This document shows, piece by piece, positions 10,726 through 61,100 of a DNA stretch of 64,000 nt. Origin of the DNA: Corallium rubrum (taxonomy: Eukaryota > Cnidaria > Anthozoa > Scleralcyonacea > Coralliidae); NCBI GenBank assembly GCA_964035015.1, contig OZ036001.1:16565111-16629110 (forward strand). The letters are read 5' to 3'. The notes under the pieces were generated by a model. That model did no database searches. It was not told the DNA's origin and saw nothing but the letters and a program-made list of their open reading frames with translations. Position numbers and translations under genes: made by a program. Positions within the stretch are counted from its first letter, which is position 1; each line of letters starts with the position of its first letter.

Positions 10726-13150
10726 GATTCCCAGGAAAATGTTAATGCAACTACTGTCACTGTTGACAGAGAGGTCCTGGAACGAGAGAGTAGAATATAT
10801 CGCCGCTCAGCATCTCGGTCACTTTCAAAATATGAAGAAACCATTAACTCATATGCATTGATCTGCTGTGAACAAGATGCAACTCTTCTCAAAGACAGAA
10901 ATAGGCTGTTTAAATTGGCGAGAGAAAAAGCTGATTCTGAGGGTTACCAGTACAAGAAACGAAAGTCTCAATCAACAGTATTTGGTAATGAAGAAGAAAC
11001 CAAAGGTGCTACAAAGAGTTTGAAATTGGTGACCAAAGAGCGTCAAAAGAGAACATTACAGTTGACTGAGGATATTAAGAGTTCTACTGATACAATAAAG
11101 TTGCTGGAGCTACAAAGAGAGAAGTTTGTCAATGCAACAAAATACCTTCAAGCTGCTGAAGTGGTAACAGATTTCAGAATGCAGAAAAAAGCTAAGGAGA
11201 CTACAAGATGAGCTTACAAAGCTTCAGAAGGCTGATGTTCGTTCGAAGAAGTACCATAAGGGTAAAAGCTCCAGTAAAAGCAAAAGTCTGGATAGTTTTA
11301 CCATTCGTTCATCTAAAGTATCCCCTATGACCAGTGCAACTGACAGATGAAGTGGTTCTACCAGTACTGTGCTCGAGAGTGACGTTGACATACAAGATGG
11401 TTTACATGAAAGTGAAGAGTGCATTGAAGTAGAGAGTGCCTCCATTCCCGTTGCCAAGAGAGGTGAACAGCGTATAGATACGTTCGCCATTAGTTCATCC
11501 AAAGCATCTCCTGTGACAAGTGTGGTTGACGGATCAAGTGGTTCTATCAGTACTGTGCTCGAGTGTGACGTTGACATACAAGATGGTTTACATGAAAGTG
11601 AAGAGTGCACTGAAGTAGAGAGTGCCTCCATTCCCGTTGCCAAGAGAGGTGAACAGCGTATAGATACGTTCGCCATTAGTTCATCCAAAGCATCTCCTGT
11701 GACAAGTGTAGTTGACGGATCAAGTGGTTCTACCAGAATTGAGCTCCAAGAGAGAGTCACAGGACAAGAAGGTTTTCATGGAAGAAGTGAAGAGTGCATC
11801 GAAATAGAAAGTGCCTCCATACTTGTTGCCAAGAGAGGTGAACAGTTCATCGCCATTAGTTCATCAAAAGGATCTCCTATAGCCAGCGAAGCCTGCAGAT
11901 CAAGTTGTTCTACCAATATTGAACTACAAGGTGAAATTACAGTGCAAGAGGTTTCTCCTGTAAGAAGTGAAGAGCAGCATGGTTCTCTACAAACCAACCA
12001 AAGTCAAGATGACCAGAGTGCTGATACGCTTTTTGCCAGAGCCCCGCAGACAATGTAGAAATCTCTTTGGGGCACATGGAAACGGTCTCGCTGCGTTACA
12101 AAAAATATTTGTCATGTAACCTCTCTAACTTTTCTTCTACTAAGAACGGACTTTATTACAGCCAAATAACTGACTTGTCCTTGAAAGAGTTTGTAATTGC
12201 ACGAAGAGATCACTGTGAAAAGAATCATTCGGTTTCGTGTAAAGAATGCAACAGCCTTATTGCAGCGGCAGAGCAAATCAATGGAAATGGCAGAGAAGAG
12301 TTTGCTGAAAAGAAAAGTACCAAAACGTGCTTCGAAGTTACTTAAACAATTCCCCAGCCTCGGAAAAGATATTGTAGATTTCGTTCATGAAAATCGAATT
12401 GGTGCAGATGCCTGGAGGAGGACTGGCGTGGCCACGTTTGATGGTAACGTGAAGAGTGGACCTCGTGTGACATATCGCAAAATCAAGGAACATTTAGAAA
12501 GCAAATATCAGAGAAAGTTTAGTTATGGAGCAATTGACCAGCTGTCAGTTGTCCGAAATAAGAGGCGCCGATCCTCCAAACACTATTGGGGTGCAGCACA
12601 GATAACTTGCCGAAGGGCTCGAAAGGGATTTAACATAAAGCTGAATCCAGATGCACATTGGAGCGCTGCTTTTTACAAAGGATTGGACAAGATCCAATTT
12701 GAAGATGGTAGAGATAAGTGTATGATAAACCGTGATGATGCATCTGGATTTAGGCTCGATACGAAGCAGTCTCGAACGAGAGTCGTCAAGAAGTAACAAC
12801 GAGGACGGACTATGTTAACAAATATTCATTGGTATTACAAGTAACATCATACCTCATTCCAGCTACGAAAACAACTCTTCAACACTCCGCGGGTCTGGTG
12901 AAGGCGCATATTCTGTACCCCAAGGATCCTTCACAACATGCAGCAGATCTTGTTATACTGGGGAATGACCCAGACTTCAAGTTTTGTTTCAAGAACAAAC
13001 CAATAGATTGCATAAGAGTGGATGGCGCAGGTAACGAAGGTCCAATACACACGGAGGTGCAGTTTTTGTGGACAGAGAGACACCTGGAACAGGAAAACGT
13101 TTGCAAAAATACAGCTACAAAGTCTAGTCAAATGATACAAATAACCATCT
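10726..13150 (+). pseudogene. DDE-like transposase gene with coiled-coil N-terminal part, broken
   Basis: From the TTAG acceptor at 10725 a Lys/Glu-rich coiled-coil-like stretch is open to about 11200 (ERESRIYRRSASRS; KKRKSQSTVFGN). It is followed by a Ser/Thr-rich 186-bp tandem repeat, a Cys-rich piece (CEKNHSVSCKEC) and a helix-turn-helix-like region with FPSLGKDIVDFVHENRIG. Two Asp-containing blocks end it (INRDDASGFRLDT and PIDCIRVDGAGNEGPIH), which I read as parts of an RNase H-fold transposase core. Similar proteins are, from memory, common uncharacterised ORFs in cnidarians and molluscs. Disruptions: frameshift near 11190, TGA at 11348-11350, frame changes near 12055 and 12260, TAA at 12794 bypassed by a frame change, and truncation near 13110. 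Confidence 0.6.
11354..11930 (+). repeat. 186-bp in-frame coding tandem repeat (about 3.3 units)
   Basis: GGTTCTA-starting units begin at 11354, 11540, 11726 and 11906. The first two intervals are exactly 186 bp (62 codons) and the last is 180 bp. Each encodes a Ser-rich unit with SSKASPVTS, ESASIPVAKRGEQ and an acidic SEECxE motif. The first two units are nearly identical, later ones diverge. The length keeps the reading frame, so expansion occurred while the gene was still coding. Confidence 0.9.
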
Positions 13151-27136: not shown

Positions 27137-29004
27137 AAGCTGTTTTCTTATTGGCCTGATTAGGTCATGTGATAAGGAAAATAACCCCTTATGTCCCCAA
27201 AATTCCCGATATTAAGGGGGTGATATTTGTTTCTATGGCAACTAAAGAGATTATGTTAGTAATATGGCTGATCGCAGCTATCTTACGTTGTGTCCTCACT
27301 GTGAAAGTTATTTGCCTGGTAGAACGTTTAGAAGACATAGAGAAAGTTTTTTCGATGCACGTAATAATAGATGGGAAAAGGATGAATGATTGTTGGAAAG
27401 CAGTAGTGGAGACGAGACCCCTTTTATGGAAATAAGTCAAGGTATTGATCATTCAGTGTTTCGTGATAGTGATAGCGATGTTGACGACCCCGGGCAACAA
27501 GCCACGGATGACAACTTGGGCGAGTTGCTTAACAACGAGGTATGGGATGATACATTAGTAAATGACATAGATGAGGATTTTAGTGAGAACCATGAAGTCC
27601 CATCTATTGAAGTAAATTCATCAAATCGTTCATCTAGTCGTACCTTAGTTAATTGCTTGATAATATTACTAGCGTACTTTTGGACTTATTTTCGCATATC
27701 TGACAGTGCCATGGAATTTCTTTTGTCTTTCTTAAAAAAGTTTTTTGAAGTAGCAGCGTTATCGAACAATTGGTTTGCTGCGCTGGCATTGGCTTTCCCG
27801 GGAACATTGTATTACTTTCGTAAAGAAATTGGTTTTGTCAAGGACAGTTTTACCAAGTACATTGTTTGCCCAAAATGCTCCGCTATATATAAGTTTGAAG
27901 ACAGTTGTACTGTTGGCAGTAGAAAGGTTTCGAAGACATGCTCGTATGTTAAATTTCCCAATCACAGACAGCGTCGAATGCGCAATCCTTGCGGTACAAC
28001 TTTGTTAAAAGAAGTTACACTAAAAGATGGTACTAAACGTCTTTACCCGCACAAAGTGTACTGTTATAAAAGCATTATTGCCACCTTGAAAGAGTTTGTT
28101 AAAAGAGGGGGTTTTACTGAGAGTTGTGGCGCAACCGTGAAATTCGTTCTGTTCATCAAATTATGTGCGATGTTTTTGAAGGGCGAGTTTGGAGAGACTC
28201 TCAAACATATAGTGGTTCTCCGTTTTTATCTGCTCCACGTAATTACGCTTTCGTGCTTAACGTAGATTGGATGCAGCCATTTGATCACACCCAGTACTCT
28301 ATTGGGGTACTTTATTTAGCTTTAATGAATCTGCCACGAAGTGAACGCTTCAAAAGACAAAATATTTTTCTCGTCGGAGTTATCCCAGGTCCAAATGAGC
28401 CTGAACTAAACATTAATTCATATCTATCCCCACTGGTTGATGAGCTATTGATACTTTGGGAAGACGGAGTATAGCTTAGACATTCGGGATCACCCCTCTT
28501 TCTGGAAGGCTTCAAGGTGGCTTTACTGTGCGTAGCATGTGATATGCCTGCAAGTAGAAAGGTGTGTGAGTTTACTGGGCACAATTCAAGATGTGGGTGC
28601 AATAAATGTACAAAGGAATTTCAATGCTCAGGAATTGGCGAGGCAACTGACTATTCCGGTTTTGAGCCACAGGGGCAGATCCAGAGTGTAGCGAAGGATG
28701 CTTAAGCATCAGTCAAAATTTGTAAACAAATACAGAAATTTGATGTATTGCGCATTCTTCTGTACTAATACAGGTCGATAATATGACATCCGTTGTTGTA
28801 GAATACTCAGGCAAAATCAATGTCAAGTTATTAAACTTCGAAGAACTCCGTCTTCTATGATGTTTATTATTCGCGCGTAAATTAATCGAATATTAATAGG
28901 AACTCATCCGATCGGTTTATAGAATTCACGCCCCCACAAGACAAGTTGCCAATGCGTGTGGCTATTTATGTCTGCCCAATCACATCTATTTTTTACAATG
29001 TAGC

Positions 29005-29110
29005 GCATATTTGGCGGGAGCTACACTGCTTAGACTTAGCCAATCAGGTACATTGTTGAGTATAGCTCAAATTTGGCGGGAGCTATACTGATTAAGAGTA
29101 TCCAATCAAG
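29005..29110 (+). promoter_or_regulatory. Duplicated E2F-like / CCAAT promoter module
   Basis: Two direct copies about 62 bp apart of TTTGGCGGGAGCTAxACTG (29010 and 29072), each followed by CCAATCA (about 29039 and 29100). TTTGGCGGGA is a good E2F consensus. A TATA-like stretch lies at about 29185 and a small ATG frame starts at 29282, so this looks like a compact promoter. Confidence 0.5.
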
Positions 29111-29281
29111 TTTTTTGATGGGCGATGCTTGCATGTTTAGGCAATTTGAGTAAACACGAAGTCATAATCGCGCCTGGTGCGCTTTTATATATTATATATT
29201 ATTTGTCTCGAGAAGACACTACCAAAACAGTGAGAACCGCGGTGAGACAAATATCAGTGGAATATTCGCTCAAATTGTGTG

Positions 29282-29540
29282 ATGTCTGAGCTCTTACTAG
29301 AGTTAGAAAGGCTAGTACCTACGGACGCTGAAGACGGACTGCAACGTGTCGTCAAGAAAATGTAGTGCGTTTAAAGCAGTTTTGTCTTGACAAGCTCGCA
29401 AACGTTGTAAATGAATATGAGCAACATGACCATGGACCGGGGTGCCCTGAAGGAAATACATCGTTGCGCGTTAGTCAATTTAGTGACCTCCAGTTTCCTA
29501 ATGGTCAAAGGATATGGTCAGGCGAACTACGACCAGTAAG
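29282..29540 (+). CDS. Possible first exon, function unknown
   Basis: ATG at 29282 opens MSELLLELERLVPTDAEDG and stops at about 29366. Shifting by one base just before the stop gives an open continuation with LKQFCLDKLANVV and FPNGQRIWSGELRPV up to a GTAAAT donor at about 29541. The combination of promoter-like sequence, ATG, helical N-terminus and donor suggests a decayed first exon of a transposon gene. I do not recognise the family. Confidence 0.35.
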
Positions 29541-30028
29541 GTAAATAAACGTTCATATATCTGTATGATGATCAAACAATTTTAAATAACTATAGATTTT
29601 TACAGAAGACCTTCGCGCAACAATTCATTATTTTGTTTTATCTTAAAGAGCATTTTGCCTTTATATGCTAATTTTAATAAACCAGTGAGTAGTTGTGATA
29701 ACATTTGTGCTTGATTTTATATGCGCACGGTGACGCGGTACATGTTTGGAAACATTGCGTATAATTTGCCACACGGTTTTAAGGCTATGTGCACACGGTA
29801 ACGTTTCCAACCGTTTTCGTATTGTTTCAAGTAATGAACTGATTGTTCTCGATTCCCTTGAGAACAGCAAACAATGCAAAAACGCTCGGAAACGTTACCG
29901 TGTGGACATCGCGCATCTCTCGCAGGCTACCGCATTTCACAGCTGTTGAAATGCGTTTGCCATTGGGATGGAGTATATACACTATTGTAGACTACAGCAG
30001 CGGTGTAATGTTTGAAATAGGTTCGTAG

Positions 30029-30090
<62 letters not shown>
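30029..30090. repeat. (TA)n microsatellite left of hammerhead array
   Basis: Pure TA run with one G interruption, directly abutting repeat unit 1 of the hammerhead array. Confidence 0.95.
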
Positions 30091-30091
<1 letters not shown>

Positions 30092-30147
30092 TTCAATCCA
30101 CAGACACGTGTTTCGCTGTACTACAGCTCATCAGTATAGCTTGGAAC
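30091..30147 (-). ncRNA. Hammerhead ribozyme, unit 1
   Basis: Minus strand: CTGATGA, stem II GCTGT/ACAGC with AGT loop, GAAA, stem III ACAC/GTGT, then GTC as cleavage triplet. Stem I pairs next to the core include two G.U wobbles (CUAUA with UGUGG), and the outer stem is weakened by one mismatch. Confidence 0.8.
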
Positions 30148-30366
30148 AATCTGAATGAATTTCACCAATTACTTATACACATGCGATCGTCGGTGACAAC
30201 CGCATGTGGGAGAGCATCGGTGAAGTACATTCAGATAATGTGAAGTGTGCATGGGCCCAGAGTGCTCAAACTTCCACAAGGGTAGTGAGCGTTGCATTAT
30301 CGCCAATAGGTACCCATGGCAACTTCACAGAGTGCTCAACAACACCGAAGTGAAGGAGCGTACATA

Positions 30367-30423
30367 GTTCAATCTACAGACACGTGTTTCGCTGTACTAC
30401 AGCTCATCAGTGTAGCTTGGAAC
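30367..30423 (-). ncRNA. Hammerhead ribozyme, unit 2 (best copy)
   Basis: Minus strand reads GUUC-CAAG-CUACA-CUGAUGA-GCUGU-AGU-ACAGC-GAA-ACAC-GUGU-C | UGUAG-AUU-GAAC. All three helices are perfect: stem I inner CUACA/UGUAG and outer GUUC/GAAC around an internal loop, stem II GCUGU/ACAGC, and minimal stem III ACAC/GUGU. All conserved core bases are present and the predicted cut falls between + positions 30378 and 30379. The tiny stem III resembles the schistosome satellite hammerhead. Confidence 0.92.
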
Positions 30424-30642
30424 AATCTGAAGGAATTTCACCAATTACTTATACACATGCGATCGTCGGTGACAACCGCATGTGGGACAGCATCGGTGAA
30501 GTACATTCAGATAGTGTGAAGTGCGCATGGGCCCAGAGTGCCCAAACTTCCACAAGGGTAGTGAGCGTTGCATTATCGCTAATAGGTACCCATGGCAACT
30601 TCACAGAGTGCTCAACAACACCGAAGTGAAGGAGCGTACATA

Positions 30643-30698
30643 GTTCAATCTACAGACACGTGTTTCGCTGTACTACACTCATCAGTGTAGCTTGGAAC
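30643..30698 (-). ncRNA. Hammerhead ribozyme, unit 3 (damaged)
   Basis: Same as unit 2 except for one missing base in stem II (ACACTC instead of ACAGCTC on the plus strand), which weakens that helix. Stem I, stem III and the core are unchanged. Confidence 0.75.
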
Positions 30699-30797
30699 AA
30701 TCTGAATGAATTTCACCAATTACTTATACACATGCGATCGTCGGTGACAACCGCATGTGGGACAGCATCGGTGAAGTACATTCAGATAGTGTGAAGT

Positions 30798-30800
<3 letters not shown>

Positions 30801-30847
<47 letters not shown>
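30801..30847. repeat. (TA)n microsatellite right of hammerhead array
   Basis: Pure TA run truncating unit 3. Confidence 0.95.
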
Positions 30848-30849
<2 letters not shown>

Positions 30850-31296
30850 AACTTCTAGCAATTGCCTTCCAATATATATTTCCGTCAAAATGAACCTGAC
30901 TGTAATTTATTTTATTTGGTAATATCAGTTTTAAATTAATCATTCGTGATGTTTAAGTATTGATGTGATTGCTTGTATTGCTTTTTATTTCTATCGCTTT
31001 TAACTTGAATATTTACAATTTGTTATATTTTCTACAAAGATCGATAGTTTAAGCTCTTGTTAAAATGACGTAACGGAGGTGTCAAATTTCCCTAACAATA
31101 AGATTTACAGTAAAGATGATGTTCTATGTTGTTGGTGTCATGAGATCACTCATGATTTGCTGTATTTTTACAAATTCCTGGCCTTTTCTGACATAACATT
31201 CCATACAAACTATGACATCATATACAGGTTATGACGTCATATACAGACTATGACGTCGTAAAGCTGCACTCAATTTTTTTGCTGGATCCGCCCCTC
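30848..31296. other. Non-coding right part of the hAT-like insert
   Basis: AT-rich, with a short repeat of TATGACGTCATATACAG-type units at about 31210-31260 (three TATGACxTCxTA motifs). No gene is seen. Confidence 0.5.
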
Positions 31297-32905
31297 AGCC
31301 ATGCCCTCAAGAAATACGGTTCAGCACAGAAGACAAGTAAGAGAAATACAAGAAGAACGTACCCAAGACGCGCGTAATGCAAAAGAATCCTTATACGGAG
31401 TACGGTACTCTGAGCTGCTTAGGTTACCATACTTTGACTGCGTAAGATTTACAATAGTTGATCCTATGCACAATCTGTTCTTGGGAACTGCTAAACGCAT
31501 GATGGAAATTTGGCTTCAATGAAATATTTTGACGCGAGCTGATTTGGAAGCTGCCCAGAATAAGGTAGACGCAACGCATGTTCCATCGAATTTAGGTCGG
31601 ATTCCATTTAGGATTGCAACGTCATTTGCTGGATCTACCGCAGAACAATGGAAGGCCTGGGTCACTGTTTTTTCTTCGTTTGCTTTGTTTGGTCATCTTC
31701 CTGACAACGATTACATTTGTTGGGTGAAATTTGTCATGGCTTGTAAACTACTGTCGCGACCATTGATAAAGATAGCAGATGTAGGCGTGGCACACGCTCT
31801 TCTCCATGACTTTTGCAGTGCCGTGGAACAACTATATGGTAACTCTCGCATTACCCCAAATATGCATACGCATACTCATTTAGCGGATTGCATTTTAGAT
31901 TACGGTCCCATATACAGTTTTTGATTGTTCAGTTTTGAACGGTATAATGGTATACTAGGCGATTACTACACAAACAACAAATCAATCGAATTGCAAGTGA
32001 TGCGAAAATTTTTAAGAGATCAGAACTTAAGGAACTTAGAATTTCCAGAAGAGTTCAAGGGGCACTTTGAACAAATGATTGATAAATTGGAACAGAGTAA
32101 CATCGACGTCTCTGGAGTTGATGTAAAGGCCTTGATTAATGTTCTTCAGTTAAGTCAAGATCGCATTGATTTAACAGATGACTTACGGTTCTCAGTTGCT
32201 GATATTCTTTTGGGTCACCACACGTTGTAGAAAATTTCGATGATGACGAGCTTCAGTACACCGCGGAGGTGTATAAGCTTTTTCTTCCAACAATATCATC
32301 TCAGGATATCCCGCAACTGTACGACAAATAAGCGTCTGTCGAGTGTGCTGGAGAAAGATACGGATCTGAGTTTTCTCGTCTGAATCGCTCTTCATTTGTT
32401 CTCGCTAGATGGGTTGGTAGATTTGACGGTAGCGTCGATGCTGAAACTGCAGATGAAAGGCCGTGTGTCATCCGGTATTTTGCAAAGCAGTCCATTTGTT
32501 TCGGTCTTCGTAGATGTACCTTTTGTTTTGCACGCGTTAGCTGGTTTCAGCGCCACCTTCATCAGTTCCTGTGTGGCAGATCCGAAGGAACCCCTAAAGT
32601 TTGGTGCGCTAACGTATTCGAGAGTTTTGGTCCTGCGTCGTTCATACCAGTCCAACGAATTTCCAGAAAATACATAGCTGGGTATGACAAGGTGGGTGGG
32701 GAAAACGTTCTATTTGTGTTGCCATTGGAGAAGAAGTCCCTTTTATAAAAGACTGGAATTGATGTTTGTATCCCGCAGTGCAATGTTTCATATATTTTAT
32801 AGCGGTTGATCCAAGCAATATTTTCAACTATTTGTGTTTTGGCGCAAACATTTCTTAGGTCACTATAGTGTACCTTTGATGTTCAAATTGTGCGCACAGA
32901 CTAAG

Positions 32906-39109: not shown

Positions 39110-39463
39110 ACGTTGTTTGTAAGTTTGTGCAATTTTGGCGTATTACCTTTGCAGTAACTTTGCACTATAGTGAAAATTTAATGCAAATTTAACTACGGAT
39201 TTGCAATTGAATTTTTCGTATGCAAAAGTTTGTGCAAATTTGTTGCAAACTTTTAATCCGCAAAGTTGAAAATACACATGCGCAAAGTTGTGCAAATTTA
39301 GGTGTCATTCTATTGCAAATTTTGTATTAAATTTGCATGGGGGCAAAGTTATGGGTAAAGATGATGCAAATTGTATTAAGTGCAAAGTTGAAAATACACA
39401 TGTGCAAAGTTGTGCAAATTTAGTTTATTAAATTTGCAATAAATTTGCAGGCATGCAAATTTA
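39110..39463. repeat. TTTGCA-rich degenerate repeat block 2
   Basis: Same family as 38190-38535, with many GTGCAAATTT and GCAAAGTTG words. It is the insertion site of the 8.35-kb TIR element; the same sequence type resumes at 47812. Confidence 0.8.
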
Positions 39464-39568
39464 TAGTCTCCTACACAGCCTGTTCGCGGGTGCGAGGTAT
39501 TCTCCCCACTCACAGACTGCTTACAGCAGCAACACATTCCATTCCGGTGTTTCAGCTCGACCAATCAC
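39464..39568 (+). repeat. Left terminal inverted repeat of the Academ-like element
   Basis: Matches 47704-47811 inverted. Visible differences are CACAGCC/CGCAGCC and CAGACTG/CAGGCTG; similarity fades after GTGTTTCAG. Confidence 0.93.
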
Positions 39569-47703: not shown

Positions 47704-47811
47704 CTCGGGCTGTGATTGACTGAAACACCGGAATGGAATGTGTTGCTGCTGTAAGCAGCCTGTGAGTGGGGAGAATACCTCGCACCCGCGAACAGGCTGC
47801 GTAGGAGACTA
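47704..47811 (-). repeat. Right terminal inverted repeat of the Academ-like element
   Basis: Inverse of 39464-39568, followed by GCAAATTTA. Confidence 0.93.
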
Positions 47812-47949
47812 GCAAATTTATTGCAAATCTAACTTTTCGTCCCGTGTTAGACTCCTACGTTCTCTGTTTCGGCAGTATATCTAACCTTATTATATTTCGA
47901 TTATTTAAGCTTTTATATTTCGATTATATATATATATACATACCGAGAA

Positions 47950-48860
47950 TTGACTGTAACAGAGTGGTTACAGAACTTGTCAATGGTTTTAGAGCGCTCA
48001 ATACCATTACCGGTAGAGCGGATAATATTTATTTATTCGGTAGACTTGCTGTGCTACTCGGAGTTTCACGCAGTAAAGCAATCGTCAAAGAAGACAAAGA
48101 CAAAGCAACTCTAACCTACGAACAACCCACAAGTGACGAAAACAACAGTGACAGCAACCGAACACAAAGACGGAACAGACAACGCAACACTATATGGTAC
48201 AACCCCCCTTACAGCAAGAACGTAAAATCAAACATCGGACAACGGTTCCTCCAACTGATTGACAAACACTTTCCACCTTCTAACAAACTACACAAAATCT
48301 TCAACTGACACAACGTACGAATTAGCCACAGCTGCCTTGACAACATGAACTCATTCATAAACAGACACAACAGGAAAATACTAAACAAACACACGAGACA
48401 CACGAACACAAACAACACAGACGACACGCGGCAGTGCAACTGCAGACAACCCGACAAATGCCCGACCGAAGGTAAATGCCTTACAAAAAGTGTAGTATAC
48501 CAAGCCGAAGTTTCGACAGACAACAACGAACCAGCAAAGTACGTTGGAGTTACCGCCGACGACTTCAAAACGAGATATAGAAACCACGCCAAATCATTCG
48601 CTAACAAAAAATACTCAACGGAAACGGAACTGTCTAGACACGTATGGAAATTGAAAGCAGCAAAGAAACCATGTTCCATCATATGGTCGCTTCTTAAGAG
48701 TGTTCCTGCCTACAAAGCTGGTTCCAGAAGGTGCAACCTTTGCCTCGAGGAAAAACTGACAATTGTGAAAAACAAGAACAATTCACTATTGAACAAACGA
48801 TCCGAACTATTCACCAAGTGCAGACATGAAACACGATACCTAATATCACACTGTAAATAG
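47950..48860 (+). pseudogene. Penelope-like GIY-YIG endonuclease region
   Basis: The frame contains [29 protein letters not shown], then a TGA at 48306-48308 where an Arg (CGA) is expected. It continues with CNCRQPDKCPTEGKCLTKS, VVYQAEV and KYVGVTADDFKTRYRNHAKSF. The end is CNLCLEEKLTIV, NKRSELFTKCRH and a stop at 48858-48860. These are the landmarks of the Penelope C-terminus: GIY-YIG-type nuclease with its Arg (FKTRY) and Glu (LCLEEK), and the CCHH-like Cys motif. The telomerase-like RT is missing, so the copy is dead, but the nuclease domain has only one stop, just upstream of it. Confidence 0.9.
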
Positions 48861-48879
48861 AGAGTAGCTTCACCAGATC

Positions 48880-48935
48880 TGTCAGTTGCCTGACGATCGC
48901 TTTACTGCGTGAAACTCCGAGTAGCACAGCAAGTC
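48880..48935 (+). ncRNA. Hammerhead-like motif in the Penelope-like right arm
   Basis: Plus strand: CTGACGA, T, CGC..GCG stem, T, GAA, ACTC-C-GAGT (stem III), then a GTA cleavage context and GCA, which pairs with TGC just before CTGACGA (stem I). The inverted arm at about 48036-48075 has TTGACGA instead, so it has lost the first core base. Confidence 0.55.
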
Positions 48936-48949
48936 TACCGAATAAATAA

Positions 48950-48991
<42 letters not shown>

Positions 48992-55570: not shown

Positions 55571-55830
55571 CTAGGGATTTTTGGTGAAGGAAAATTCGAG
55601 TGTAGAATATATACATTTTAAGCCCAAACCGGGTCCAGTTGCGAAAAATGCAACTACACAGGCCATCGCGAGATCTCGGCAATGGCCTCCGTGGCTCAGT
55701 GGTCAGAGCATTGCACTAGAATCGCAAGGTCGTGGGTTCAATACCTGCCGGAAGGCCTGTGTAGTTGCATTTTTCCCAGTTGGTCCCGGTGTCACGGTCT
55801 CAGCATTCCCCCAGTCTGAGTTATCCCTTT
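55571..55830 (+). mobile_element. tRNA-derived SINE with inverted flanking arms
   Basis: Starts with TTCTAGGGATTTTTGGTGAAGG, sequence shared with the 22-kb palindrome. A tRNA-like head (about 55684-55757) has an A box TGGCTCAGTGG and a B box GGGTTCAATACC, and folds roughly into a cloverleaf with an AGA-like anticodon loop. The head is flanked by inverted arms (AATGCAACTACACAGGCC / GGCCTGTGTAGTTGCATT). A 3' part with AGCATTCCCCCAGTCTGAG follows. The internal pol III promoter suggests a SINE rather than a working tRNA, because the acceptor stem is mismatched. Confidence 0.75.
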
Positions 55831-56083
55831 TGATTAACTGCGCATGCGTGAAAACAGCGGACCGCTGAGCACGTAGCTAGCTGGCCTGAACGCTCCCCCA
55901 GTCTGAGTTATCCCCGTTTGGGTCCCGTTTATATTTTTGCTTTTTATCTTCGCTTGTTTATAAAAAAAGGCTTTTAAAGTATTCTCATGAAGACACATTA
56001 TTGTTAGATATGGTAAGGCGATTTAATATCGTATTATTTCTTTATATATGCCCTATGGCTATGTCACTTTTTTATATTTTAAA
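55831..56083. other. Spacer between SINE and satellite
   Basis: Contains a second GCTCCCCCAGTCTGAGTTATCCCC stretch at about 55890-55913, the same word family as the satellite. Otherwise AT-rich non-coding. Confidence 0.6.
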
Positions 56084-57421
56084 AAGATAACTCAGACTGG
56101 GGAGTGCCGAGACTGGTCTGAATGCTCCCCAGTCTGGGGTATCCCCTCTTAATTTTTTAAGAGATAACTCAGACTGGGGAGTGCCAAGACTGGTCTGAAT
56201 GCTCCCCAGTCTGGGGTATCCACTCTTAATTTTTTAAAAGACATAACTCAGACTGGGGAGCATTCAGACCAGTCTCGGCACTCCCAGTCTGAGTTATCTC
56301 TTAACAAATTAAGAGGGGATACCCCAGACTGGAGAGCATTCAGACCAGTCTCGGCACTCCCCAGTCTGGGGTATCCCCTCTTAATTTTTTAAGAGATAAC
56401 TCAGACTGGGGAGTGCCGAGACTGGTCTGAATGCTCCCCAGTCTGGGGTATCCCCTCTTAATTTTTTAAGAGATAACTCAGACTGGGGAGTGCCAAGACT
56501 GGTCTGAATGCTCCCCAGTCTGGGGTATCCCCTCTTAATTTTTTAAGAGATAACTCAGACTGGGGAGTGCCGAGACTGGTCTGAATGCTCCCCAGTCTGG
56601 GGTATCCCCTCTTAATTTTTTAAGAGATAACTCAGACTGGGGAGTGCCGAGACTGGTCTGAATGCTCCCCAGTCTGGGGTATCCCCTCTTAATTTTTTAA
56701 GAGATAACTCAGACTGGGGAGTGCCGAGACTGTCTGAATGCTCCCCAGTCTGGGGTATCCCCTCTTAATTTTTTAAGAGATAACTCAGACTGGGGAGTGC
56801 CGAGACTGGTCTGAATGCTCCCCAGTCTGGGGTATCCCCTCTTAATTTTTTAAGAGATAACTCAGACTGGGGAGTGCCGAGACTGCTCTGAATGCTCCCC
56901 AGTCTGGGGTATCCCCTCTTAATTTTTTAAGAGATAACTCAGACTGGGGAGTGCCGAGACTGGTCTGAATGCTCCCCAGTCTGGGGTATCCCCTCTTAAT
57001 TTTTTAAGAGATAACTCAGACTGGGGAGTGCCGAGACTGGTCTGAATGCTCCCCAGTCTGGGGTATCCCTTCTTAATTTTTTAAGAGATAACTCAGACTG
57101 GGGAGTGCCAAGACTGGTCTGAATGCTCCCCAGTCTGGGGTATCCCTTCTTAATTTTTTAAAAGAGATAATTCAGACTGGGGAGTGCCAAGACTGGTCTG
57201 AATGCTCCCCAGTCTGGGGTATCCCTTCTTAATTTTTTAAAAGACATAACTCAGACTGGGGAGTGCCAAGACTGGTCTGAATGCTCCCCAGTCTGGGGTA
57301 TCCACTCTTAATTTTTTAAAAGACATAACTCAGACTGGGGAGTGCCAAGACTGGTCTGAATGCTCCCCAGTCTGGGGTATCCCCCCTTAATATTTTAAGA
57401 GATAACTCAGACTGGGGGAGA
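56084..57421. repeat. 77-bp satellite array, about 17 units, with an inverted block
   Basis: The unit begins ATAACTCAGACTGGGGAGTG, has CCGAGACTGGTCTGAATGCT in the middle, and ends in a TAATTTTTTAAGAG linker. Each unit is itself partly palindromic (CTCAGACTGGGGAG / CTCCCCAGTCTGGGG). Units at about 56238-56375 are in inverted order. Most units differ by 0-3 bases, with linker variants at the right end. No spacers, so it is not CRISPR-like. Confidence 0.97.
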
Positions 57422-58155: not shown

Positions 58156-61100
58156 CTATTTACAATTGGCACAATAGAATATAGTTTTGTCATTAACTTT
58201 CCTTGGCGCATTTTCACAAGATCGGTGAAACCATTCGGCACAATTTGTACATTGAATCATGAATGAACCACTGTATGGCGTTCTACAGTGACAAAACAGT
58301 TCGACAACTTCCTTCCTTTCATGTTGCATGGGTAAAACTGATGCATTGACAGGGAATTGAGCTAACTCTCCAATCTGGAAGCACATGGCAAGGTGCACTC
58401 TCATCATCTTCTGGTCATAAGCTTGTGCACTAGGATCTTCTCCGATGAGAAGACTGAAAGCAACCGCAACAGCAAAAAGGCCACAATCAGCACAGCCTTT
58501 CTGTTTCTGCATTGATGGCCACACAATTGTCATGTTCGGGTAACTAGTGTTCAGCAATGCTGCTAAACACAGGTAAAAGTTCTTTCTGTGCTTTTCTGGT
58601 AGCTCCATATACTTAGAGTCATATACTTTGACGACATTATCTTCACATCCAATATTTGTGACAGTTACCCAATGTTTTCCTCCAACATTAATGATTTGAA
58701 CAAACTCCTTTTGTCCTTTCTGAATTTTCAGGGTTTTCCCTTCAAAAGCCAGCACAGAATGCAAGTCTTTACACCCTGCAAAGTGCTGCTGCAGCAACCA
58801 TTGAGCGTGATCAATATGATCATCTGAAAGCCAAAAGTCTTTTTTGAGGATTGTAGATGATAGCTTTTCAGGATTTGGGTTTGCTTCACTTCCTAGCACT
58901 TCGCACCGATTCTTTCTCTTGTCATTCCTAGGTTTTCCATTATACAGGCTGTTATCATCTGTTTGGCCACCTTTAAGGTTAAGTTTAGTTTTAAGGTTTT
59001 CGCAAGTTGCTGACCTGAGTACTGAAGTACTGAACTAAAGTACCGAAGTACTGAATATAAACTCGGAATTTGCAGTGTTTTGCAGAAATAGCCAGGAATT
59101 TGACAACTTGTTTATTGAAGCTTTTAAGAAATACGTTTAATTCGTTGACTGCATTATGTAAACACTGCAAATTCAGAGTTTATATTCAGTACTTCGGTAC
59201 TTTAGTTCAGTACTTCGGTACTTAGGTCAGCAACTTGCGAAGTTGGCTTCCCAAGTTCTGGTCCAACATTCCAAATTTGGCAACGTAATTGGGAATATTC
59301 ACAACGAACTTGGGAATCGTGCTGTGAAAAGTAGCAAAACCCTCAAAGCACAGGAGAGAACCTCTATACTTACATGAGTTTTTCAAGTACTCAAGTACTC
59401 CATTAACCCCAGTGCTGTTACTCTCATTTTTGTTGACTTTATCTTCATTTTTGTTGTTATCATCTTCATTCCCATCGTTGTCATCTTCTTCCTTGTCATC
59501 TAGAGTATAGGTTGTCAACTCATTATCTAAGAGTTATTGAAATTACTTTAACCCTATTAACGTCCAAGACTTTTCCCTTGACGAGTAAAATCATCTGGTG
59601 TTAGACAGAGTAAATACTAAAGTAGGGTGCATTACTCGTCAAGGGAAGAGTCATGCGTGTTAATGGGTCAAATTGTGACTTGTTTTTAGATTGAATAGGC
59701 ATAGTAATATGATAGTATGAAGTTCAACAATTTGCAATAAATGAAAAATAAACATTACTTTTATGTAGTTTGCTACTGTCATTGATGCTGTCATCTAGGA
59801 GGCTGCCATCATCCTCAGTGGAAAGTCTGTCATTTTCTTGTGTGCACCCATTCTCAGCACTGCCTGCTCTTCTACTGCAGCTATCTTCCTTGTGAAGTTC
59901 ACTCACCACATAAGGTCTTAGCTGGTCATAGGGGACTTTTTTTTTCAGAGGAATGGCATTATCCTTCAATGGAATAAGGGTTGCTCTTTGCGATGAATCA
60001 ATTTCTGTGACCCTGTAAATAATAATTATTATTGACTATTATTCTTCAATTGAACATCAACACGATTCCCATGATTCCTATCAGTATCAAGGCTTGAACG
60101 GTTTTACAATTATTTAATATCCATTTAACAAGAAACACAGAGGCGGGACACTAGGGGGCCGAAGAAGGGGTCTTCCGCCCAGTAATTTTGAAAGATCTCT
60201 GAAGTCTCTTACCATGTATTTCAAGTATTGCTGTGGAGTAAGCAGAATCTAAATGCTAAACTACAGAAAGCAATTTACCAAGCCATTTATAATCAGCACA
60301 ACCACTGATCTGAAAGATTTTGCATGTCTTAGATCTGATCATTAAACCGACGCCGAAACCCCATTATCAAGTTAATCTGAGTGGGCAAAATCAGACGTTT
60401 TTTTATCAAGGAAAAAACATTTGTGATACCTGTATGGCCCAGTCCATCCTGGCTCCATTTTCCCTCCTTTTCTGGAAATGTTTTTCATTTGGCGTTTGTA
60501 CACAATATCACCCACTTTGATATCAAATGTCTTTACTCCCTTAGCTTTTCTTTTTTGATACTGTTTCTTCTGTTTATCTTGAGCAACCTTGACATTCTCC
60601 AGAACCTAAAGATATTTGAATATTATCCATATCAGCCATTTCATTGTGACTCGTGTGACCAAGTCACAAAATTTTAGGGTTAAAAGGGTTATTTTTTACT
60701 ACTTCTAATTTAGCAAGAATCAAGCTTACTTTAAACAATGAAGCCCCTGGGAATATAGTCAAGTCAATATATTTAATTCCTAATAATTTTATTTAATGCC
60801 ATTGATTTAATAACTTATTGTCATGTGACTCTCGTGACCGCCAGAAATGTGAAAATTCCAATTACTGGGATTCTGATTAATTTTCCTGGCAACTTATTTA
60901 TTTTATTTAATCCTAACCTTTATAAAACATATAGTGGAATATAAGGCTATGACACCCCAGTGAAATTTTAGAAAAATCTTTTTTGGTTTAACAGATAATA
61001 TTACAAGGAAAACGTGACTCACGTGACATAAGACTGTGACTCGCGTGATGAGTGGTGAATAACATAACAAAAAGCTGGTTTAAATGACAAAAAGTCAATG

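Follow-up and report, generated by a model that had tools for sequence, protein, structure and literature searches.

A tandem array with a 276-bp period, lying within the window (the whole 64-kb stretch of DNA that was analysed), is very probably the genomic copy of a non-autonomous retroelement, namely a metazoan non-LTR retrozyme. The locus is assigned to this known class because its anatomy agrees with that of metazoan non-LTR retrozymes as described in PMC7229834. The retrozyme-like interpretation proposed in an earlier note is borne out by unit size, ribozyme type, tandem form and self-pairing, all of the kind described in that source. So read, the locus is an ordinary and well-formed, if partly decayed, representative of a class that is known but easily overlooked; it contributes a short copy with clear bounds in which two ribozyme cores are intact. 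Routine annotation can miss such elements: with its curated cut-offs Rfam reports no hammerhead here despite a complete core.

Layout of the tandem array

Tandem Repeats Finder (TRF) reports a 276-bp period with 2.6 head-to-tail copies and 97% matches at 30088-30803, and it also delimits an (AT)n microsatellite on each side. The exact tandem period and the TA repeats capping both sides of the array had been described before, and both are confirmed, the period by TRF and by predicted cut sites that lie 276 apart. The array and its flanks comprise the following features:

30032-30091, no strand: (AT)n microsatellite, low side (TRF, 30 copies, 96% matches)
30088-30363, minus strand: unit 1 of the probable retrozyme, 276 bp (TRF period 276), last in the minus-strand (sense) direction
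30364-30639, minus strand: unit 2, 276 bp
30640-30803, minus strand: unit 3, partial, 164 bp, first in the sense direction
30802-30847, no strand: (AT)n microsatellite, high side (TRF, 23 copies, 100% matches)

By blastn, units 1 and 2 are 96.7% identical across 276 bases, and units 3 and 2 are 98.8% identical across 165 alignment columns, with one base absent from unit 3. Private changes in the 165 shared columns number six in unit 1 (one of them at the (AT)n junction), one in unit 2 and one in unit 3. This distribution is not the best prediction for identical copies made from one circle, and the numbers are small; as proof against a single insertion the uneven divergence was set aside, there being too few changes, one of them at the junction. 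Beyond unit 1 the (AT)n begins 11 nt past the cut site and continues as ATATAT, the (AT) array extending to 30091. Because (AT)n borders the array on both flanks, a target-site duplication would be invisible.

The array forms a discrete block, since unit 2 has no blastn match elsewhere in the 64-kb window (E up to 0.05). Two weak inverted matches of unit 2, both within the array (about 70% across stretches of 95 and 92 bases), reflect hairpin-like self-complementarity of the unit. Apart from the 276-bp units themselves, no LTR-type direct repeat occurs in 29700-31200, and there is no open reading frame (ORF) of at least 110 aa within 30088-30803, hence neither a reverse transcriptase nor an endonuclease ORF of such size. 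The two 276-nt monomers have G+C contents of 0.47 and 0.46. The exact 32-base core has no match in IMG/VR, and 708 bases of the array have none in 50,697 phage records; these null results say little, because the collections hold viruses and phages and possibly leave out the genome to which the window belongs.

Anatomy of the hammerhead ribozymes

Each unit carries a hammerhead ribozyme (HHR) motif on the minus strand:

30091-30147, minus strand: type I HHR of unit 1, predicted cut 30103/30102; descriptor match at 30134; Rfam HH9 14.6 bits, below cut-off
30367-30423, minus strand: type I HHR of unit 2, predicted cut 30379/30378; descriptor match at 30410; Rfam HH9 21.3 bits, below cut-off
30643-30698, minus strand: HHR of unit 3 with damaged stem II, nominal cut 30655/30654; no descriptor match; Rfam Hammerhead_1 22.4 bits, below cut-off

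The type I layout is complete in units 1 and 2. By reading of unit 2, stem I is in two parts (GUUC/GAAC and CUACA/UGUAG) separated by an internal loop CAAG/AUU, and the remaining elements are CUGAUGA, a stem II of 5 bp closed by the loop AGU, GAAA, and GUC as the cut site. Stem III comprises just 2 bp (A-U and C-G) and is capped by the palindromic tetraloop ACGU. The internal loop in stem I and the loop of stem II are candidate parts for loop-loop contacts between helices I and II. In unit 1 the outermost pair of stem I is lost at the junction with (AT)n, and stem I includes two G-U pairs; the two stem I positions at which units 1 and 2 differ both remain paired as G-U, two cases that prove nothing alone. 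Unit 3, also by reading, has lost one base at the position corresponding to 30126 in unit 1, leaving a 4-bp stem II and a bulged base. The predicted cut sites are spaced exactly 276 apart, so the two intact ribozymes of units 1 and 2 would define one 276-nt RNA, and a second would need a working unit 3.

On anatomy, the identification of the ribozymes is solid. The complete minus-strand hammerhead that the earlier note placed in unit 2, with a GUC cut at 30379/30378 and an internal-loop stem I, is upheld both by reading and by the descriptor, with a stem III of 2 bp. Its broader statement that every unit holds a type I hammerhead stands in part: the motif is present in all three units and intact in two, and the third, with its damaged stem II, fails the descriptor.

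A strict descriptor (core present, a minimum of 4 bp in stems I and II and of 2 bp in stem III, both strands) finds only two matches in the 64-kb window, at 30410 and 30134 in plus coordinates, both on the minus strand and corresponding to units 2 and 1; unit 3 is missed on account of its lost stem II base. The same descriptor has no match on either strand in 150 dinucleotide shuffles of the window. At gathering scores, the Rfam search of the whole window yields tRNA only and no hammerhead. A tRNA-like sequence at 55685-55756 (39.9 bits against a cut-off of 29) may be a gene, a pseudogene or the head of a SINE.

At a relaxed Rfam threshold, with E values that refer to a search of 4227 families, unit 3 matches Hammerhead_1 (22.4 bits, cut-off 34, E 0.0082) and unit 2 matches Hammerhead_HH9 (21.3 bits, cut-off 52, E 0.012), each across the whole model; unit 1 scores 14.6 with HH9 (cut-off 52) and 15.4 with Hammerhead_3 (cut-off 48.5). 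Covariance scores below threshold in all three units had been named in the earlier note as grounds for rejecting its reading, and all three units do score below gathering, but the relaxed matches span complete models. These scores are not taken as a refutation, because the two best matches cover full models with the core aligned, because the descriptor is controlled by shuffling, and because the family itself was described through RNAmotif and inspection (PMC7229834).

Folding of the unit RNA

Folded as circles, the two 276-nt RNAs between cut sites each have an energy of -93.5 kcal/mol, with z scores of -5.57 and -5.79 (100 shuffles each), and the circle form has 70% of its bases paired against 62% in shuffles. 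For the linear monomer delimited by the unit 2 and unit 1 cuts, z is -5.06 and none of 200 shuffles folds equally well. In the isolated motif the ribozyme form reaches -8.5 kcal/mol in unit 2, where the minimum-energy form reaches -11.2, and -4.4 against -12.5 kcal/mol in unit 1, nested energies that in both units omit loop-loop contacts. The minimum-energy circle likewise pairs the ribozyme core away and is 6.1 kcal/mol better than the ribozyme form. Masking of the core in the circle was considered as a regulatory switch, and no such switch is claimed, since 134 of 200 shuffled contexts give the same or a larger gap.

Nesting within other mobile elements

The array lies inside a larger insertion that in turn interrupts a transposase gene:

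27912-31846, strand not given: Tnp_2-type transposase gene, broken and split (homology to P0146)
28670-31296, no strand: hAT-like insertion around the array, 2,627 bp, with inverted ends CAGGGGCAGATCCAG and GAGGGGCGGATCCAG

Homology to transposase breaks off at 28666 and picks up again at 31304, and the insertion falls between residues 264 and 267 of the transposase relative P0146, which bears PF02992 (Tnp_2) by precomputed annotation. The gene shifts frame near 28121 and is interrupted by in-frame stop codons at 28472-28474 and 31520-31522, and the window's own ORF at 27390-28265 matched no Pfam family. The inverted ends and the interrupted transposase homology place the retrozyme inside a hAT-like insertion inside a Tnp_2-type transposon. 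The hAT label of the insertion is tentative and comes from the end sequence. Just upstream of the low-side (AT)n, at 29784-29912, lies an imperfect palindrome of about 129 bp, 71% alike to its own reverse complement and perhaps a small inverted-repeat element.

A probable Penelope-like element in the window

Some 18 kb from the array lies what is probably a fragment of a Penelope-like element (PLE), a candidate source of a related helper enzyme:

48105-48860, plus strand: 3' coding fragment of a probable PLE (304 homologues; P0003 matches 48105-48848 at 84%)
48879-48929, plus strand: HHR-like motif of the PLE, predicted cut after 48923; relaxed descriptor match at 48890

A search with 48309-48860 gave 304 relatives (E up to 0.001), 120 of them listed. 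The PLE assignment is probable and goes by its motifs, a weak GIY-YIG match and the layout with an inverted copy. Conserved cysteines can be seen, as can a YIG-like motif, and GIY-YIG (PF01541) is matched by two of 27 aligned members (best E 0.0002), with unrelated families likewise matched by one to three members. The window's own PLE ORFs matched no Pfam family, and among eight listed relatives run against Pfam, the seven shown gave weak or no matches to unrelated families and none to GIY-YIG. The protein had no match by sequence among solved structures, and its five pattern matches in IMG/VR, a virus collection, were none of them confirmed. A 62-bp inverted copy of the PLE 3' end stands on the 5' side (48026-48087 against 48891-48952, 98% by blastn); inverted pLTRs have been described for PLEs (PMC3846280).

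The HHR-like motif lies about 30 bases past the PLE stop codon and was found with a relaxed descriptor that accepts a stem I of at least 3 bp and lets the first stem II pair fail; this descriptor has three matches in the window (48890 and units 1 and 2) and eight in 300 shuffled windows. No Rfam hammerhead is listed at the motif. The PLE ends 17 nt after the predicted cut, in AATAAATA...TATA, A/T simple repeats, and by reading the sequence that follows these 17 nt is AATAAATAAATAAATATATA.

Several further features were observed in the window. At 56077-57417 a 77-bp unit that contains an inverted pair around CAGACTGGGGAG and CTCCCCAGTCTG is repeated in tandem about 17 times (93% matches), and a 186-bp tandem repeat of about three copies (11301-11974) lies in a 235-aa open frame at 11351-12058. 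A 100-bp segment occurs at 39457-39555 and 47720-47819 in opposite orientation (96% alike) as a dispersed repeat. On the minus strand, the ORF at 58156-59034 has a PHD finger (E 8.7e-07), several of its listed relatives being labelled PF02902 or PHD. The relatives listed for window proteins include P0077, an uncharacterised fish protein. An animal origin of the DNA is suggested by its transposon content and by the match to metazoan retrozymes.

Proposed life cycle and alternative explanations

As a whole, the locus is best explained as a metazoan non-LTR retrozyme copy with the life cycle proposed here, an explanation in which we have high confidence. The minus strand would be transcribed, cleavage at both intact sites would release a single 276-nt RNA, and a host tRNA ligase would close this RNA into a circle; a reverse transcriptase acting in trans, perhaps from a PLE, would then copy the circle in more than one round into A/T-rich DNA at a nick, and the product left would be 2.6 head-to-tail units between (AT)n. 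We infer mobility, transcription, cleavage, circularisation and a helper at this locus, and the release and circularisation of unit-length RNA suggested in the earlier note would form part of the same cycle. Cleavage, ligase closure and the presence of circles in tissue are supposed by analogy with relatives: most invertebrate retrozyme HHRs are reported to cleave efficiently in vitro, and for the two monomers tested, of axolotl and mussel, closure by RtcB ligase was far better than closure by the ribozyme (PMC7229834). That an RNA circle templated the insertion is likely, and the chances that a PLE served as helper are about even. Priming of the (AT)n end by pairing with the circle was tried and rejected, as the result was not significant (equally good positions: 22 of 276 for 6 bases, 24 for 8 and 55 for 10).

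In favour of a retrozyme count the 276 period within published sizes, the full HHRs in two of three units, the folding z scores, the nesting in another insertion and the probable PLE nearby. Counted against it are Rfam scores below cut-off, the damaged HHR of unit 3, a ribozyme form that is not the minimum-energy one in motif or circle, a G+C of 0.46-0.47 that exceeds the figure-legend limit of <45% though not the <50% of the text, and the lack of a visible target-site duplication. The last point and the one damaged ribozyme in three, together with head-to-tail units of uneven divergence, would also suit a satellite-type DNA repeat with an old hammerhead, spread by unequal crossing-over or DNA circles and with no RNA stage today. 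This reading seems improbable: with just 2.6 units, the array is a block of sharp bounds that lies inside another insertion, the ribozyme core is intact in two of the three units, the stem I changes between units 1 and 2 stay paired as G-U (two cases only), and published repeats of this kind yield circular RNAs (PMC7229834).

It is very improbable that the array is instead the tandem part of a PLE's own pseudo-LTR region and not a separate element. PLEs do bear HHRs and are found arranged in tandem (PMC11167929), and some 18 kb off there is a probable PLE that has an HHR-like motif, but the array has no reverse transcriptase or endonuclease ORF of at least 110 aa, no blastn match links unit 2 to the window's PLE region, and the HHRs of PLEs are described as minimal variants (PMC7761336), against the two-part stem I found here. 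A chance hammerhead-like sequence within an unrelated tandem repeat would account for the sub-threshold Rfam scores of all three units, yet it is rendered extremely improbable by the absence of strict descriptor matches in 150 shuffled windows and by the location of the match in a tandem repeat of the retrozyme size class.

Within the retrozyme reading, the PLE link at the locus is suggestive: PLEs have been named a strong candidate for retrozyme mobilisation (PMC7229834), an idea that the locus fits without proving it. Which enzyme copies retrozyme circles becomes a testable question here, because the array ends beside a ribozyme and a nearby probable PLE with an HHR-like motif ends alike. 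A tentative and rather unlikely hypothesis is that an HHR close to the 3' end of the RNA being copied serves retrozyme and PLE alike as a landmark indicating where reverse transcription starts, the locus displaying the proposed link. On the same joint reading, itself doubtful to a like degree, a PLE-type protein would recognise the hammerhead-marked site in both templates, the PLE RNA in linear form and the retrozyme RNA as a circle, and place retrozymes in (AT)n. The basis is that the elements end 17 nt (PLE) and 11 nt (retrozyme) past the cut and that A/T simple repeats follow both; a single copy of each element counts against it. In the lizard PLE, mutants of the ribozyme remain able to insert in vitro; the main start is located 111-118 bp into the ORF and the HHR cut 26 bp into it (PMC11167929). 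The landmark hypothesis is thereby weakened, since the mutants insert and the start is farther from the ribozyme than both ends are here. The lizard protein also prefers to cut A/T-rich DNA, and reverse transcription begins internally on the template, at a position that lacks homology to the cleaved DNA (PMC11167929), behaviour that, if shared, would suit the (AT)n surroundings and the negative microhomology test.

Comparison with known systems

Metazoan non-LTR retrozymes, as described by Cervera and de la Pena in 2020 (PMC7229834), are the closest counterpart, the likeness being one of anatomy. Their repeats measure 150-450 bp and their RNAs 170-400 nt; they are reported to lack an LTR, a primer-binding site and a polypurine tract, to form loop-loop contacts between helices I and II, and to have target-site duplications of >4 bp when these are present. 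Shared with the locus are a short tandem repeat with a type I HHR per unit, a highly self-paired unit RNA, no LTR-type layout seen, short arrays (dimers, trimers upward) and a probable PLE in the same genome. The locus differs in its (AT)n flanks, its one damaged ribozyme and its G+C of 46-47%, which fits the <50% given in the text of that source but exceeds the <45% of its Figure 1 legend. No report of retrozymes in (AT)n microsatellites was met in the article passages covered, and no claim is made that this location is unreported.

PLEs resemble the locus in their HHRs, tandem arrangement and insertion into A/T-rich DNA, but they are autonomous and encode a reverse transcriptase and GIY-YIG endonuclease ORF, of which there is none in the array (PMC11167929, PMC3846280). 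The LTR retrozymes of plants likewise have an HHR-bounded unit and a presumed circular RNA route, but their HHRs are of type III, their length is about 600-1000 bp and they carry LTRs and a primer-binding site, whereas the locus has type I HHRs and a 276-bp unit (PMC7229834, PMC7761336). Retrozymes of the amphibian satellite-2 type, in newt and axolotl, share with it tandem units and a very short stem III with a tetraloop, with dimer pairing possible, and differ in units of 330-350 bp (PMC7229834). Stem III has one pair in HHR_Amex1 and two pairs here, as in HHR_Amex2, and a 2-bp stem III with a tetraloop is the form termed similar to invertebrate HHRs (PMC7229834).
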